From: a virus
Reading direction: 5' to 3' (one strand)
Virus record (IMG/VR): IMGVR_UViG_3300043424_000137
Location: 1 to 38,361 of that record
DNA length: 38,361 nucleotides
In this document: piece after piece, positions 1 through 38,361 of the stretch
Numbering within the stretch: position 1 is the first letter of the stretch
Layout of the letters: the number at the start of each line of letters is the position of its first letter
Position numbers and translations under genes: made by a program
The notes under the pieces: model-generated
Told to the model about the DNA's origin: nothing
Databases searched by the model: none
Seen by the model: the letters and a program-made list of their open reading frames with translations, nothing else

Positions 1-513
1 GCGGAGCATCGCTCCAGCCAGCCCATCTCTTTTGGCTTGAGAGGGTGGCAGCGTGCTGTTCTTGCTGTCGTTGGTTGTTGGCGTTGGCAGCAGTCTTGCC
101 ATGACCGTTTCCAAGTTTCGTTGAAGTTCTAGTCGTCCTTGCTGTGTCCGCAGGTTGACGCTCATGGCACTGTTGGCGCGAGGGGTAGGCAACGAGCCAC
201 CACCGATCTCTTTGATGGCAGGCTCCCACAGCACTCGCTGGAATACATGCCCATTCTGCATCAAACCCTGTCTCGGCCAGCTCTCCAAGAACGGTGTCCA
301 GTCCGTTAGCAAGGATCGCTGAGACGTTTTCCAAGACGACGTATCGGGGTTGAACCATGCAAACGACTCGCATGAGTTCGTAAAAGAGACCAGACCGAGT
401 GCCTTTCTTGATGCCGGCTTGTTTACCTGCAAGTGAGATGTCTTGACAGGGGAATCCACCGCAAATAACGTCAGCTGTTCCCGGCTCGGGTTGGAAGGTT
501 GTGATGTCGTCAT
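1..513 (-). CDS. Nested +1-frame protein, candidate second (target-recognition) subunit of the cytosine methyltransferase
   Basis: Starting at ATG 513, the +1 frame inside the methyltransferase gene is open for all 171 codons to the window edge. It reads like a real protein. Phrases include WFNPDTSSWKTSQRSL, DWTPFLESWPRQG, GGGSLPTPRANSAM, LLPTPTTNDSKN and TLPPSQAKRDG. I recall such phrases from phage proteins that accompany or complete C5 methyltransferases. By analogy with M.EcoHK31I and M.AquI, whose chains are split with overlapping or nested frames (from memory), this would be the smaller chain supplying target recognition and the last motifs. No strong ribosome binding site precedes ATG 513, so coupling to the outer frame or a frameshift is possible. 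The alternative is that one of the two frames is a shadow. Confidence 0.55.
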   Translation of the reverse strand, partial: MTTSQPSNPSREQLTLFAVDSPVKTSHLQVNKPASRKALGLVSFTNSCESFAWFNPDTSSWKTSQRSLLTDWTPFLESWPRQGLMQNGHVFQRVLWEPAIKEIGGGSLPTPRANSAMSVNLRTQQGRLELQRNLETVMARLLPTPTTNDSKNSTLPPSQAKRDGLAGAMLR

Positions 514-664
514 AGATGGGGATGCCGGGAAAGTTTTGGGAAAGGATACTTTTGCAAAAAGGCTCACGCTCAACGAACCCGATGGTCTCAAAGCCACCTA
601 GCAGATGAGCTGCCAGCGAGAATCCACCAATGCCAGCAAAGGTGTCAAGGAGCTTGAGCGTCAT
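1..664 (-). CDS. DNA (cytosine-5) methyltransferase, N-terminal catalytic part (open at window edge)
   Basis: A C5 cytosine methyltransferase transfers a methyl group from SAM to cytosine in phage DNA, probably to evade host restriction. Visible family motifs are: the SAM-binding motif DTFAGIGGFS (residues 7-16), the catalytic GGFPCQ with Cys73, ENV (112-114), and IPASAVGACHQRDR (141-154). The start ATG at 664 overlaps the stop of the upstream helicase gene as ATGA, so the two are translationally coupled. The frame stays open to the window edge (221 codons), but the target-recognition region and motifs IX-X are not seen in this frame. A second frame nested at +1 carries conserved-looking sequence (separate entry). 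In the circularised version of the contig this frame would instead run through 38260 and stop at 38154. Confidence 0.9.
   Translation of the reverse strand, partial: MTLKLLDTFAGIGGFSLAAHLLGGFETIGFVEREPFCKSILSQNFPGIPIYDDITTFQPEPGTADVICGGFPCQDISLAGKQAGIKKGTRSGLFYELMRVVCMVQPRYVVLENVSAILANGLDTVLGELAETGFDAEWACIPASAVGACHQRDRWWLVAYPSRQQCHERQPADTARTTRTSTKLGNGHGKTAANANNQRQQEQHAATLSSQKRWAGWSDAP
109..209. repeat. 101-bp direct repeat, left copy
   Basis: Bases 109-209 are identical to 38261-38361; flanking base 108 (t) differs from 38260 (a). An exact 101-bp overlap is what an assembler leaves when a path re-enters a circle. The extra 108 bases to its left show that two sequence contexts exist before this repeat. 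Confidence 0.95.
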
Positions 665-2031
665 GGGCGGCCGGCGTTCTGCCTTGCAAAGTAAACGTGC
701 CTGGCCCAGCCCACCGGATTCTTCATGCCACGGGATTGTCCGACGGCAATGAGCTGTTGCAGGGTGCGGGCTTGGCGGCGCTCATCAGTGCGTTGTCGCA
801 CTTCCTCGCGCTTGAGCTCCCGCAGCTCACCAGCCATCTCACGTATGACCCGCGATCTGATCGGAGCACACCCTGCCCCACACACCGGACAGACCGGCGC
901 TGGCTTGAACGCGGCGTAGCACTCAGGGCATGTGCGGACCGATGGTGCTGGTGTGCCGCGGCCACCACGCACAATGCCTTCGGCTAGCGACCACTCGCGT
1001 GGATCATCCGGGAACCCATGGCGGGTGACGTTGCCCACGTGATCGAGGATGAGCGCAGCATCCTTGCCGAGCGCTGGGCGCAGCACGCGGCCCACCTGCT
1101 GCAGGTAGAGGCCGAGCGATTGGGTTGGGCGCAGCAGGATCGCGCAACTGGCGGCTGGCACATCAAAGCCCTCGCTCACCACATCCACGGTCACGAGCAC
1201 ACGCACGATGCCGGCTGCATACTGCGCCACTACCTGATCACGGTCTGGAGTATTGCCTAGCAGCAGTGCTGCGCCAATACCTGCCGTCTTAAATGCGTCG
1301 CACACTGAGACAGCATGGGCGACATTGCAGCAGAAGGCGATGGCCTGCTGCCCATCAGCCAGGCGCTGGTAATGCGCGATGGCATCACCTGTAACTGTGG
1401 GCCGATCCATGGCGGCCGCGGCCTGATCGTTGGCGTAGTCGCCAGCACGACGCCGGATGCCGGATAGATCAGCAACGACTGGTGGCGCGTAGATCCGCGC
1501 GGCAGATAGGAATCCCCAGAACACCAGATCAGCGACGCTGGGGCCCGTCACCAGATGATCAAATGCCTCGCTGAGGCCGCGGCCATCAAGTCGGCATGGT
1601 GTGGCTGTGACGCCAAGCCGATAAGCATCAGGCCAATGGTTGAGGATCTGACGCCAGCTGCCAGCTGCTGCGTGGTGCGCTTCATCGATGATCACCAACG
1701 ATGGGCTCCATGCCATGCCGGCCAACCTGCGCACGAGCGTTTGCACGGATGCCACCTGCACCTGTGCATCTGTAGCCGGATGGCCAGCGGCGATGATGCC
1801 GTGATCCAGGCCAGCCCATTGCAGCTTGCTGGCGGTCTGATGGATCAGCTCACGACGATGCACCAGGATCAGCACCTGGCGCCCGCGTGCTGCAGCTTGC
1901 GCGGCGATGGTGGCCAGGATCACGGTCTTGCCGCCACCTGTTGGCAGGCATAGCAGCGGTGCCCTGGCGCCCTGCTGCATGGCGGAGCGCAGGGCATCGA
2001 TGGCGCGATCCTGATACCCCCTCAGCTGCAT
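661..2031 (-). CDS. Superfamily II DEAD/DEAH-box helicase with C-terminal zinc ribbon
   Basis: A 456-residue SF2 helicase of the SSL2/type III restriction helicase kind, an ATP-driven DNA translocase. Visible motifs: Walker A PTGGGKT (30-36), DEAH box IIDEAHH (114-120), VTATP (141-145), and motif VI QQVGRVLRP near residues 311-319. Toward the C terminus CPECYAAFKPAPVCPVCGAGC forms a Cys-rich zinc ribbon. It overlaps the upstream helicase-methyltransferase gene by 10 bases and the downstream cytosine methyltransferase by ATGA, so the three are one leftward operon. It may serve early replication or recombination, or act with the methyltransferases. The family is certain; the role is inferred. 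Confidence 0.92.
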   Translation of the reverse strand: MQLRGYQDRAIDALRSAMQQGARAPLLCLPTGGGKTVILATIAAQAAARGRQVLILVHRRELIHQTASKLQWAGLDHGIIAAGHPATDAQVQVASVQTLVRRLAGMAWSPSLVIIDEAHHAAAGSWRQILNHWPDAYRLGVTATPCRLDGRGLSEAFDHLVTGPSVADLVFWGFLSAARIYAPPVVADLSGIRRRAGDYANDQAAAAMDRPTVTGDAIAHYQRLADGQQAIAFCCNVAHAVSVCDAFKTAGIGAALLLGNTPDRDQVVAQYAAGIVRVLVTVDVVSEGFDVPAASCAILLRPTQSLGLYLQQVGRVLRPALGKDAALILDHVGNVTRHGFPDDPREWSLAEGIVRGGRGTPAPSVRTCPECYAAFKPAPVCPVCGAGCAPIRSRVIREMAGELRELKREEVRQRTDERRQARTLQQLIAVGQSRGMKNPVGWARHVYFARQNAGRP

Positions 2032-4289
2032 GGCAGGAGCTCCGCTTGCTTAGCGGCCTGCACATTGGTGAGGTTCTTCACTGCACAGTTGAAGTAGGAG
2101 GGTTTCAGCTCAAACCCAACGAAGCGGCGGCCCATCTGCAGGCTGACGTGGCCCTCGGATCCAATACCAGCGAACGGGCTGAGCACCAGGTCGCCGGGGT
2201 TGCTCCACAGTTGCAGGCCGCGGCGGATCACCTCGAGTTGCAGCGGGCAAATGTGGCGCTCATCCTCATTGGCGCGTGCGCTGCGATATTGCAGCGTGTC
2301 CGATGGGTTGATGTCCATCCATACGGGGCTGGCGTAGCGCTGCCAGATGTTGATCGAGTCCTTGATGGCATCGCCCGTCTTGGCTGGTGGGTTCTCACCG
2401 GCAAACTCAGTGAACGGGCCGGCCACCGGCTCGGTGTTGTCGCCCAGCTTGCGCACGGTCACCAGATAGTCAGGGATGCCTTGGCGGCTGAGTGCTGAAT
2501 CCTTACGGATCTGCTTGTGCAGCAGGCCGATTGCCTTGGTGCGCTGCATGGCGGTGACTGGATCCTTCCAGATGCAGACCTCGCTATGAAAGACGAAACC
2601 AGCGGCCTGGAAGATGCGCAGCATGTCACCGCGGAAGTCCTTGACGCCGATGAAACCATCGCGCTCCTTGCTGCTGGGCAGGTTCATGCAATGGAAGCTG
2701 ATCAGCCGGCCGGGCATCATCACGCGATGCAGCTCAGCTGCAAGGAATCCGAAGTGATCAAAGAACTCCTGTTCAGTGCGGCTGTTGCCCATATCGCGGT
2801 CGCTGTTGGAGTAGGTGTAAAGCGACGCGAACGGTGGGCTAAAGATGCTGTAGTGGATGGAATCAGAGTCCAGCTGTCGGATGCTCTCCACGCAGTCGCC
2901 TAGATACAGATCCCAGTTGTCGCCGGACTTGTGCTCAGTGACGTGCGGCGCCACCTGACGCTGGATCTTCTTGAGTTGTTCCATGGTTGATTGCTTCATG
3001 ATGGTGACCATGGATTGCGCCATGGCGATACTGTCCGCTTCCTTGCGGCGGATGTTGTCGATCACGCGGCCTTCTGCCACGTCGTAGATGATGTGAGCGT
3101 TGACGGGTTGCTGTTGACCGAATCGCCAGCAGCGGCGTATGGCTTGATAGAACGCCTCATAGCTATGGCTGAGGCCAACAAATGCAACGTTGTGGCAGCG
3201 CTGGAAGTTGAGGCCAAACCCGAAGATGCTGGGCTTGCTGACCAGCACGCGGATCTTGCCGTCTTGGAAATCGATGGCGGCCTGCCGTTTGTGATCGTCT
3301 GAATCGGAGCCTGATACCTCAACAGCACCATCAATGGCTGCTGTGAGCGCTTTGGATTCATCGTTGAGATCACACCAGATCAGCCATTGCTCGGTGTTGC
3401 TGTTGGCCAGGGTGGCAGCAGCTGCAACCCGCAGATTGAGCGATGCCTTGCGCACGTGGCGTTGATCGCTGAGGGTGCGGGCCTCCATGGCGAACAAAGC
3501 CATCTGGCCGGCGTCATCAGTTGCGGCATCACGTGGCGTTTCGACCGTGCAGTCTTGGATCTGCAACTCGGGCAGGATGAAGCTGCCATCGTCGTAGCCG
3601 AGATCTGATGGCTTGCGGATGGTGACTGCCCAGCTGCAAACCCACTCCCAGAACTTGCTGACGGCATGGCCTTTGAGGCGCCATTTGCTGGTGTCGCCGC
3701 CATCGTGGACGAAGAACATGGCCAGCATCTCGGTGCGGGTCATGACGCCGATGAACTCAGCATGATTGCCGAGCTCCATATGGTCATTCGGCGCTGGTGT
3801 GGCGGAGCAGGCCAGCCGGAATGGCGTCTGCGCGAATGACTCGATGATCTGGTTGCGGATCTTGCCGGTGTATGCCTTGAGGATGCTGGACTCATCGAGC
3901 ACTACGCCAGAGAAGGCGGTGGCGTCGAAGTGGGCCAGCTTCTCGTAGTTGGTGACCGTGATGCCGGGTTGCACATCGCCCTGTGTGCTGGCGAAGTGGC
4001 AGGCAATGCCGAACTTCTGGCCCTCGCGCACGGTTTGGTGTGAGACGGCAAGCGGCGCCAGGATCAGCACGTTGCCGCCGGTGTACTTACAGACCTGAGC
4101 GGCCCATTCAAGCTGCATGGCGGTTTTACCCATGCCGCAATCGGCCCAGATGCAGAACCTGCCAACACGGCAGGCCATGGTCACGATGTCCCGCTGAAAG
4201 GGGAAGAGCGGCGCGGTGAACTGCTGCGGATCGAAACCGACTGGTAGGCAGGCGGTTGATTTGGAAGCGAGAAAGGCGGAGTAGTTCAT
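2022..4289 (-). CDS. SNF2-like helicase fused to an N4/N6 (amino) DNA methyltransferase
   Basis: A 755-residue fusion counted from the chosen start MNYSAF at 4289; an upstream ATG at 4388 would run into the divergent rightward gene. The N-terminal part is a SNF2-type helicase: CGMGKT (51-56), the Walker B variant LDESS (131-135), SATP (162-165) and GLSHSYEAFYQAIRRCWRFGQ (motifs V-VI, about 372-391). The C-terminal part is an amino-methyltransferase of the permuted type: catalytic SPPF (484-487) comes before the SAM-binding SPFAGIGSEG (704-713), with FVGFEL after it. It would modify adenine or N4-cytosine. It is the first gene of the leftward arm. Helicase-methyltransferase fusion is unusual next to a second helicase and a C5 methyltransferase. 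No cognate nuclease domain is visible in it. Confidence 0.88.
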   Translation of the reverse strand: MNYSAFLASKSTACLPVGFDPQQFTAPLFPFQRDIVTMACRVGRFCIWADCGMGKTAMQLEWAAQVCKYTGGNVLILAPLAVSHQTVREGQKFGIACHFASTQGDVQPGITVTNYEKLAHFDATAFSGVVLDESSILKAYTGKIRNQIIESFAQTPFRLACSATPAPNDHMELGNHAEFIGVMTRTEMLAMFFVHDGGDTSKWRLKGHAVSKFWEWVCSWAVTIRKPSDLGYDDGSFILPELQIQDCTVETPRDAATDDAGQMALFAMEARTLSDQRHVRKASLNLRVAAAATLANSNTEQWLIWCDLNDESKALTAAIDGAVEVSGSDSDDHKRQAAIDFQDGKIRVLVSKPSIFGFGLNFQRCHNVAFVGLSHSYEAFYQAIRRCWRFGQQQPVNAHIIYDVAEGRVIDNIRRKEADSIAMAQSMVTIMKQSTMEQLKKIQRQVAPHVTEHKSGDNWDLYLGDCVESIRQLDSDSIHYSIFSPPFASLYTYSNSDRDMGNSRTEQEFFDHFGFLAAELHRVMMPGRLISFHCMNLPSSKERDGFIGVKDFRGDMLRIFQAAGFVFHSEVCIWKDPVTAMQRTKAIGLLHKQIRKDSALSRQGIPDYLVTVRKLGDNTEPVAGPFTEFAGENPPAKTGDAIKDSINIWQRYASPVWMDINPSDTLQYRSARANEDERHICPLQLEVIRRGLQLWSNPGDLVLSPFAGIGSEGHVSLQMGRRFVGFELKPSYFNCAVKNLTNVQAAKQAELLPCS

Positions 4290-4380
4290 AGGCGGATGGA
4301 TCGGGCTGAGCGGCCCGCTGCCGCGAACCGTAGCGCATCTTGCCGCATCCGCTAGTATTTGGCCGCAACTGCACGCAAGT
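4290..4380. promoter_or_regulatory. Divergent promoter region between the two genome arms
   Basis: This 91-bp gap separates the leftward helicase-methyltransferase gene (start 4289) from the rightward RecE-like gene (start 4381). TAGTAT at 4353-4358 is a rightward -10-like hexamer about 25 bases before the ATG. Its complement lies in CCAAATACTA, usable leftward. I see no convincing -35 boxes. The location is strongly implied by the gene directions; the exact elements are weak. Confidence 0.4.
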
Positions 4381-5217
4381 ATGGACAACGCCGCGTATCA
4401 CGCACATTCGGCTGTCTCAAAGTCTCATCTGGATCTCATCGCGAGATCACCGCTTCACTACTGGGCGCGTTATCTGGACCCTGACCGTGTGGCACCAGAG
4501 CCCAGCCCACAGATGCGCCTTGGCACTGCGCTGCACACGCACGTGTTGGAGCTCAGCAGATGGGATCAGGAGATCGTTGTGGCGCCACCAATCAACCGAC
4601 TTACCAAGGCCGGGAAGGAGGAATGGGCCGCCTTTATGGCCGCATCAGCTGGCCGCACCGTCATCACCGCCGACGATGCCGCGCAAGTGATGGCCATGGG
4701 CCGTGCTGTGCTAGGTCACCCTGCTGCAGCGATGCTGCTAGGCCTACCGGGCAAGGCTGAGACCACGCACATGTGGGCCGATGCCGGCACTGGGCTTGAA
4801 TGCAAATGCCGGCCGGATTGGCTGACGGACGACGGCAGCATCGTGGTGGATCTCAAAACCACCAAGGACGCCAGCCCGCGAGGGTTCAAGCAAAGCGTGG
4901 CCAACTATCGCTATCACGTGCAGGCCGCTTGGTATCTGCACGGGCTTGAGCAGGCCACCGGACGCCGGCCGGATCAGTTCATCTTCATCTGCGTGGAATC
5001 AACCGCGCCGTATGCCGTGGCGGTCTATGCCGCCGATGCGGAGATGATCGAGCGCGGGCACGATCAGGCGATGCGCGATTTGGCGAAATTGGCGGTTTGC
5101 AAAGCCGCTGATCACTGGCCGAGCTACAGCGAGCAGATCGAAACGCTCAGCCTGCCCGCTTGGATGACGGGCCAGCCGGGCAGCACACAGACCACAGAAA
5201 CCATTCAGGAGTTTTGA
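4381..5217 (+). CDS. RecE-like exonuclease (PD-(D/E)XK, DUF3799/exodeoxyribonuclease VIII family)
   Basis: A 278-residue nuclease resembling the C-terminal domain of RecE, which resects double-stranded ends so that RecT can anneal the single strand. Visible: N-terminal SKSHLDLIARSPLHYW (about 14-29) as in the family, LGTALHTHVLE, and the catalytic core GLECKCRPDWL ... IVVDLKTTKDA. Asp and the D-x-K of VDLKTT form the PD-(D/E)XK site, followed by YRYHVQAAWYLHGL. It begins the rightward arm and is followed by a small coiled-coil gene and RecT, the normal exonuclease/annealing pair. The start ATG has no clear ribosome binding site, as is common in cyanobacterial hosts. Confidence 0.88.
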   Translation: MDNAAYHAHSAVSKSHLDLIARSPLHYWARYLDPDRVAPEPSPQMRLGTALHTHVLELSRWDQEIVVAPPINRLTKAGKEEWAAFMAASAGRTVITADDAAQVMAMGRAVLGHPAAAMLLGLPGKAETTHMWADAGTGLECKCRPDWLTDDGSIVVDLKTTKDASPRGFKQSVANYRYHVQAAWYLHGLEQATGRRPDQFIFICVESTAPYAVAVYAADAEMIERGHDQAMRDLAKLAVCKAADHWPSYSEQIETLSLPAWMTGQPGSTQTTETIQEF

Positions 5218-37864: not shown

Positions 37865-38215
37865 TCAGGAGATTATTTGCGTCGCATCTGCGACCGATCT
37901 AGCCACCCCTGCAATCCCACCGCACTGCTGTACGCACGCAAGCCACGCCTGCTGCTCAGAGCGGACGCGGCCTGTGGGAGTCTTGACTTCAATGCTGGTG
38001 AATACAGCGATCCGCTGCCCAACCATGTCGGGCGTGATGGTCACCGTGCGCCAACCGATCAGGTCTGCGGAGCCGCGTGCCAGGCCAAACTGCACGGGCC
38101 GGCCGGTGCGTGGGTCGGGCAGAGTCCCGCAGTTGTTTCTGTAGAGCCTGAGATCACTTCTCGTGCCCAGTGCCAGTCGTATTTGCTGTAGCAGATGCGT
38201 CTCGCCTTGAGCCAT
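37865..38215 (-). CDS. VRR-NUC domain nuclease
   Basis: A 116-residue nuclease; start MAQGET at ATG 38215 with GAGG eight bases upstream (38225-38222). VRR-NUC core: LRLYRNNCG (25-33), FGLARGSADLIGWR (with the catalytic Asp), the IEVKTPTGRVRSEQQAWLACVQQCGG strand-helix (E-x-K pair) and GVARSVADA. Stand-alone VRR-NUC proteins are Holliday-junction or structure-specific nucleases in phage replication. It is the first gene of the primase block, directly after the methyltransferase junction. Confidence 0.9.
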   Translation of the reverse strand: MAQGETHLLQQIRLALGTRSDLRLYRNNCGTLPDPRTGRPVQFGLARGSADLIGWRTVTITPDMVGQRIAVFTSIEVKTPTGRVRSEQQAWLACVQQCGGIAGVARSVADATQIIS

Positions 38216-38224
38216 CAAGATCCT

Positions 38225-38361
38225 CTAGGTGCTTTTGCACATTGTGCCTTGAAATTCCGATTCCAAGTTTCGTTGAAGTTCTAGTCGTCCTTGCTGTGTC
38301 CGCAGGTTGACGCTCATGGCACTGTTGGCGCGAGGGGTAGGCAACGAGCCACCACCGATCT
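38225..38361 (-). CDS. Short C-terminal end of the nested methyltransferase frame (junction version)
   Basis: The last 101 bases repeat 109-209, so the leftward nested methyltransferase frame re-enters here. After the repeat it reads only about 12 further codons (ending GTMCKST) and stops at TAG 38227-38225, just before the VRR-NUC gene. Compared with the tail version at 1-108, which continues with the conserved LPTPTTND block, this end is truncated. The outer methyltransferase frame would run on to TGA 38156-38154, overlapping the nuclease start. It is either a real deletion variant or an assembly branch between two related genomes. Confidence 0.5.
   Translation of the reverse strand, partial: IGGGSLPTPRANSAMSVNLRTQQGRLELQRNLESEFQGTMCKST
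38261..38361. repeat. 101-bp direct repeat, right copy (closes the circle onto 109-209)
   Basis: Exact copy of 109-209 at the contig end. Closing here gives a 38,152-bp circle and joins the leftward methyltransferase gene to the VRR-NUC/primase operon. This is circular permutation or concatemer evidence, not an attachment site: no integrase gene is visible anywhere. Confidence 0.9.

Follow-up and report, generated by a model that had tools for sequence, protein, structure and literature searches.

A nested pair of reading frames at the start of the window, by which we mean the whole 38,361-nt stretch analysed (virus record IMGVR_UViG_3300043424_000137, positions 1 to 38,361), very probably encodes both chains of a two-chain cytosine-C5 methyltransferase in the same DNA. 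Alpha, the outer chain, would be catalytic and beta, the inner one, would provide the small domain, the two jointly marking phage DNA; we put the probability of this reading at about 83%. The nested two-chain design is known, and the window is a further case of it. It is unusual for a long overlap on one strand to yield conserved, functional proteins from both frames, and here this design is seen in hundreds of loci from phages and bacteria.

Alpha matched PF00145 (E=4e-38), TIGR00675 dcm (E=2e-31) and phrog_363 (E=6.5e-66) and carries the C5 methyltransferase motifs I, IV (PCQ), VI (ENV) and VIII; the GGFPCQ, ENV and CHQRDR sequences named in an earlier note, made from the letters of the window, are all present in the outer frame (Table 1). 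As that note described, the +1 frame is open from its ATG to the contig edge, and the beta blocks quoted there appear in its translation, with SSWKTSQ at 339, ESWPRQG at 285, LPTPRAN at 192 and LPTPTTN at 90. Counted from GTG 597 the beta frame comprises 199 codons, and residues 29-182 of this longer ORF aligned to positions 25-174 of the 329 of phrog_1008 ('DNA methyltransferase', E=7.3e-19). No Pfam or NCBIfam model matched beta in the profile searches. Because the window ends before motifs IX and X in either frame, the complete pair was reconstructed from relatives: the 3' part of alpha including motif X, and the 3' part of beta with motif IX, would both lie beyond the contig edge. Alpha is complete in the relatives L141, L154 and L006, and exact-match scans found no contigs spanning the window's ends.

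In the proposed mechanism, alpha would supply the catalytic large domain with motifs I-VIII and, judging from relatives, motif X; its stretch past motif VIII would be a tolerated linker toward motif X. Beta would have its own start in the +1 frame, near ATG 513, and would contribute a small hairpin block, at least one module of 25-45 residues starting with (L/W/Y/F)PTP, and motif IX, occupying the place of the small, target-recognising domain of a one-chain enzyme. Alpha and beta would then associate into one active enzyme, which would mark the phage DNA, most likely against host restriction.

Table 1. Positions of the two chains, their motifs and modules, and the repeat at the far end of the contig
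Feature	Position	Strand	Remarks
Alpha (outer chain), C5 methyltransferase, motifs I-VIII	2..664	minus	221 codons, open at contig edge
Alpha motif IV GGFPCQ, catalytic Cys	443..460	minus	from sequence
Alpha motif VI ENV	323..331	minus	from sequence; in the beta frame this DNA falls within TSSWKTS
Alpha motif VIII region CHQRDR	203..220	minus	from sequence
Beta (nested inner chain), +1 frame of alpha	1..513	minus	ATG 513, 171 codons, open to base 1
Beta 'SSW' block (ESFAWFNPDTSSWKTSQ...ESWPRQGLMQNGHVF)	241..369	minus	overlaps alpha motifs VI-VIII
Beta module 1 (LPTPRANSAM...NLETVMARL)	91..192	minus	same type in L141, L142, L148, L154, L160
Beta module 2 (LPTPTTNDSKN...LAGAMLR)	1..90	minus	truncated at contig edge; found in many relatives too
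Second copy of bases 105-209 (module 1 region)	38257..38361	minus	near-exact repeat, 1 mismatch in 105

Openness, spread and constraint of the inner frame

Taken alone, the openness of the +1 frame in the window proves little. Shuffling the synonymous codons of alpha, with its amino acids held fixed, left the frame open in 18% of trials; drawing codons by the usage of four other ORFs of the phage did so in 2.3%. The chance of about 3 in 10,000 given in the earlier note ignored the outer gene and overstated the improbability by roughly two to three orders of magnitude. The same test applied to 125 non-redundant relatives gave a median P of 0.002, and the median open length, in a set slightly larger than the 293 loci described below, was 214 codons for the +1 frame versus 16 for the +2 frame.

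Related loci were collected with alpha and beta queries on viral contigs and bacterial genomes, to which annotated phages and plasmids were added; the first ones found with beta were 41 IMG/VR loci and Synechococcus phage S-H1. Beta overlaps alpha in the +1 frame in 292 of 293 loci and in the +2 frame in none, these being counts of non-independent events in loci that share descent. Since the beta queries guarantee a beta, the fair part of the count is the 80 loci fetched with the alpha query, and beta was present in 80/80. Beta is wholly nested within alpha in 245 of the 276 intact loci. The nested frame thus has homologues, among them the phrog_1008 family, and it is open, free of stops, in the relatives, both as the idea of a second gene in the earlier note led one to expect. 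The sole exception, L083 (about 2129-3550), in which both families lie in one frame, was rejected as a true fusion, as it is a frameshifted copy with an HNH-like insert in the overlap.

The nested pair was also seen in genomes and MAGs (L215-L294) labelled Gammaproteobacteria, Actinomycetota, Bacillota, Bacteroidetes, Planctomycetota and Patescibacteria, and in one Euryarchaeota MAG. A relative in the prophage of E. coli PCP07014 (L325, 1200-1961) is annotated as a pseudogene; its alpha and beta are interrupted at about the same place, with motif X in alpha and motif IX in beta. In the records examined of Synechococcus phage S-H1, E. coli prophages and plasmids, the inner gene is often missing from the annotation.

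Conservation of the +1 frame was measured as the mean BLOSUM62 score of pairs with less than 50% alpha identity and compared with synonymous shuffles. The observed mean was 0.55 versus −0.14 after shuffling; the +2 control gave 0.06 versus −0.28, a gap half as large, and stands above its own shuffles because of shared ancestry and shared nucleotides. Two Trp residues of the SSW block, which 96 and 99 of about 125 relatives retain, need an alpha Leu codon CTG or TTG (xTG). At the two sites xTG makes up 97% and 85% of the Leu codons versus backgrounds of 34% and 29% in the same genes, the site with 97% being the Leu before EN in motif VI. Synonymous sites are thus constrained across homologues in favour of beta, the check that the earlier note had proposed.

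The locus also shows where constraint passes between frames within one gene. From PCQ to motif VIII, substitutions peaked at the third alpha position (0.118/0.077/0.281 for first, second and third positions). After motif VIII the peak moved to the first position of alpha, which is the third of beta (0.333/0.172/0.180), and a neutral DNA alignment gave the same peak (0.280/0.128/0.165). Window bases 184..1, compared with 16 relatives, yielded 0.463/0.163/0.102, with 83% identity in beta and 47% in alpha. This beta-type constraint lies in the window's own DNA, and we therefore conclude that the inner frame is coding there and that beta is the main constrained product past motif VIII, where the DNA is kept mainly for beta.

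A separate start for beta is consistent with the relatives: of 125 loci, 111 have a beta-frame ATG close to where the start should be, versus 51 expected, and 38 have an SD-like word as well, versus 8.8 expected. No Shine-Dalgarno word was evident upstream of ATG 513 itself, and searches at this inner start for promoters, terminators and RNA structure gave no signal beyond chance.

Chain layouts and modules in complete relatives

L141 and L154 contain the two module types of the window in the same order and in a complete gene. Their alpha lacks motif IX and has motif X at its C-terminal end (LKALGNAVVPQV). Their beta closes with LNP(S/C)FVEEMMGFPxGWT, which by its position can be taken as the equivalent of motif IX. 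Module 2 is followed in relatives by LNPSFVEEMMGFPxGWT. Altogether, motif X in alpha was combined with motif IX and PTP modules in beta in 166 loci, L141 among them. The earlier note had assigned target recognition and the later motifs to the inner frame; of these, motif IX is indeed found there in complete relatives, motif X belongs to the outer chain, and the nested chain may give target recognition.

Other layouts were found as well. In the Streptomyces phages Samy and Euratis alpha stops just past motif VIII, and motifs IX and X are in the inner frame. In Gordonia phage CheeseTouch motifs IX and X are in alpha and the modules in beta, and in mycobacteriophages modules, IX and X are all in alpha, with a shorter nested beta. 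The single chain of the mycobacteriophage locus L295 matches phrog_363 over residues 1-404 and phrog_1008 over 249-405, and its model aligned with M.HhaI over 1-407 (Z 22.9, 3.6 A over 234 residues), the module stretch having a pLDDT below 50. In this fused chain the PTP modules sit between motifs VIII and IX, the location of the target-recognition region in one-chain C5 enzymes. Among the fused one-chain enzymes of mycobacteriophages and relatives (L295-L324), closely related phages have LPTP modules of different kinds and in different numbers, a natural series for relating modules to methylated motifs. One C5 methyltransferase made as two chains from the same DNA, as proposed in the earlier note, agrees with the homologues, the openness, the codon constraint, the constraint switch and these natural fusions.

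When beta was modelled alone, the model had modest confidence, with a pLDDT of 67 and a pTM of 0.36, and the SSW block formed the predicted strands of highest pLDDT. The structure search returned no PDB match for the fold of beta alone, and the beta profile found nothing among PDB sequences. Matches of the beta model among viral models were annotated members of the same family, a likeness that rests on sequence.

From 258 loci, 705 PTP modules were cut, mostly of 25-45 residues. The modules begin with (L/W/Y/F)PTP, and a locus may have from 0 to 7 of them. Single-linkage clustering chained most of the cut modules into one group; greedy clustering at 60% identity, used in its place, gave 231 module families, 79 with at least three members; these numbers are approximate because the crude cutting rule takes in some neighbouring sequence. 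In 939 locus pairs the two loci had a module of at least 75% identity in common while each also had a module without counterpart in the other. The common module stood at a different place in 575 of these pairs, and the catalytic stretch was at least 90% identical in 244. At the level of sequence comparison, this establishes that modules are swapped between loci.

Exchange of modules while the backbone stays the same is the pattern expected of swappable recognition units, although it falls short of proof, and the modules may be dual-coded, exchangeable units of target recognition. We give about even odds to a more extended proposal, in which the inner frame consists of tandem, dual-coded target-recognition modules of 25-45 residues that are shuffled among phages and bacteria and confer several specificities per gene pair, with small indels moving the modules and motifs IX and X between frames to create four chain topologies. 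If the modules are target-recognition units, phages could change their protected sequences by swapping a dual-coding block of about 100 bases. The module arrays are a ready-made natural collection from which short peptide blocks could be matched to the DNA sequences they read.

The far contig end and alternative readings

Bases 105-209 of the window recur at the far end of the contig (Table 1), and the sequence beyond the repeat differs between the two copies (1-104 versus 38256 downward). The far-end copy runs into a VRR-NUC gene (38215..37865), where the alpha and beta frames both end early, without motifs IX and X. In close relatives the gene order is helicase, methyltransferase, VRR-NUC, primase. 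Because the copies diverge, one continuing intact and the other truncated at VRR-NUC, the sample seems to contain two alleles of the 3' part of the methyltransferase, one intact to the edge and one truncated. Part of the phage population may thus carry a dead methyltransferase gene. The genome is probably circular or permuted. On the minus strand, a 788-aa ORF at 2022-4388 that adjoins the helicase and C5 methyltransferase genes joins a helicase half (ResIII/DEAD, Helicase_C) to an N6/N4 DNA methylase half (PF01555, E=2e-15).

The +1 frame could be a non-coding shadow, open and conserved merely via alpha. The openness of the window is not unusual with its own codons (P=0.18), and alpha is partly reflected in the block that covers motifs VI-VIII, where YVVLENV is read as TSSWKTS. 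A shadow, however, would not constrain synonymous codons or raise +1 conservation far above the +2 control, and past motif VIII conservation is higher in beta than in alpha, substitutions being most frequent at the third beta position, window included. A chance or shadow ORF is ruled out by the codon-constraint and codon-position tests, and we give this reading almost no weight. A programmed +1 frameshift, joining alpha motifs I-VIII to the beta-frame modules in one fused chain with no separate beta start, would find precedent in the mycobacteriophages, which have such a fused chain in one frame, and in Samy and Euratis, whose alpha ends just after motif VIII with IX and X in the other frame. 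Yet the conservation of beta reaches well upstream of any point at which a shift would be useful, and an in-frame ATG for beta occurs in 111 of 125 loci against the 51 expected. A frameshift would also cost the enzyme motif X, which in the main topology is encoded in alpha, downstream of the overlap, and we consider this mechanism improbable.

Two further readings were considered. Beta may be real and required, with the PTP modules serving as flexible spacers or as regulatory tails and the target being read elsewhere, for example by the SSW block or the alpha tail. The low predicted-structure confidence of the modules and their number of 0 to 7 would suit such a role, as would the published assignment of the target-recognition region of M.EcoHK31I to alpha (PMC3404938). 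The modules are nevertheless under purifying selection in the beta frame, their families recur in loci with distant backbones, and in the fused enzymes they lie between motifs VIII and IX, at the place of target recognition in one-chain enzymes; we regard the spacer role as possible but doubtful. Somewhat less likely still is a decayed gene in the phage of the window, whose true genome would carry the truncated allele at 38257-38361, with 1-664 being a remnant or a minority strain. Bases 105-209 do recur at the far end and lead directly into VRR-NUC, the gene that follows the methyltransferase in relatives, with motifs IX and X missing, but the head branch (1-104) continues both frames intact, and its module 2 is under beta-type constraint. 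We retain the nested two-chain enzyme as the preferred reading.

Comparison with known two-chain and multi-target methyltransferases

In M.EcoHK31I (YGGCCR) the beta chain is nested in another frame of alpha, and this nesting of the second chain inside the first is found in the window. The enzyme consists of two polypeptides, alpha with motifs I-VIII and X and beta with motif IX (PMC3404938), and the likeness, compared by the published summary, lies in the motif split of the complete relatives. That both chains are needed in vitro is stated in the title of Lee et al. 1995, cited in PMC3404938. The summary places the predicted target-recognition region of M.EcoHK31I in alpha (PMC3404938), whereas in the phage family the stretch past motif VIII is constrained in beta. 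Since alpha is much less conserved than beta there, we would place the target-recognition region of the phage family in beta. Tandem PTP modules and frame-switching, both of which the phage family has, are not described for M.EcoHK31I in the literature covered.

In Paenibacillus phage Leyra (LEYRA_61/LEYRA_62) and other P. larvae phages, a second CDS lies wholly inside the first in the +1 frame. Both are annotated as DNA-cytosine methyltransferase and have the same motif split and the same last-module type as the window family, although Leyra beta is distant, at about 25-29% identity to that of the window. The products gp61 and gp62 have been listed as two cytosine methyltransferase genes (PMC6070908). 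The nested pair is public in Leyra, and the architecture is therefore already known. For the spread of the design, the module exchange and the frame-switching layouts, we found no description in the part of the open literature covered, and phrog_1008 itself was absent from the paper texts searched, where the sole match was phrog_10089. The closest annotated phage is Synechococcus phage S-H1 (AZB50543.1), with 62% identity in alpha, 58% in beta and the same nesting; only alpha is annotated in its record, and its last module differs from that of the window.

M.AquI (CYCGRG) likewise has two chains split in the variable region, as here (PMC3404938). Its beta carries both IX and X, whereas in the close relatives of the window motif X is in alpha and a split of the M.AquI type was not found. 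It is Streptomyces phage Samy that resembles the M.AquI split.

The C5 methyltransferases of the Bacillus phages SPR and phi3T hold several short tandem target-recognition units between motifs VIII and IX of one chain. By description these enzymes resemble the phage pair studied here; they differ in that SPR and phi3T use one chain in one frame, whereas the pair consists of two chains in two frames.
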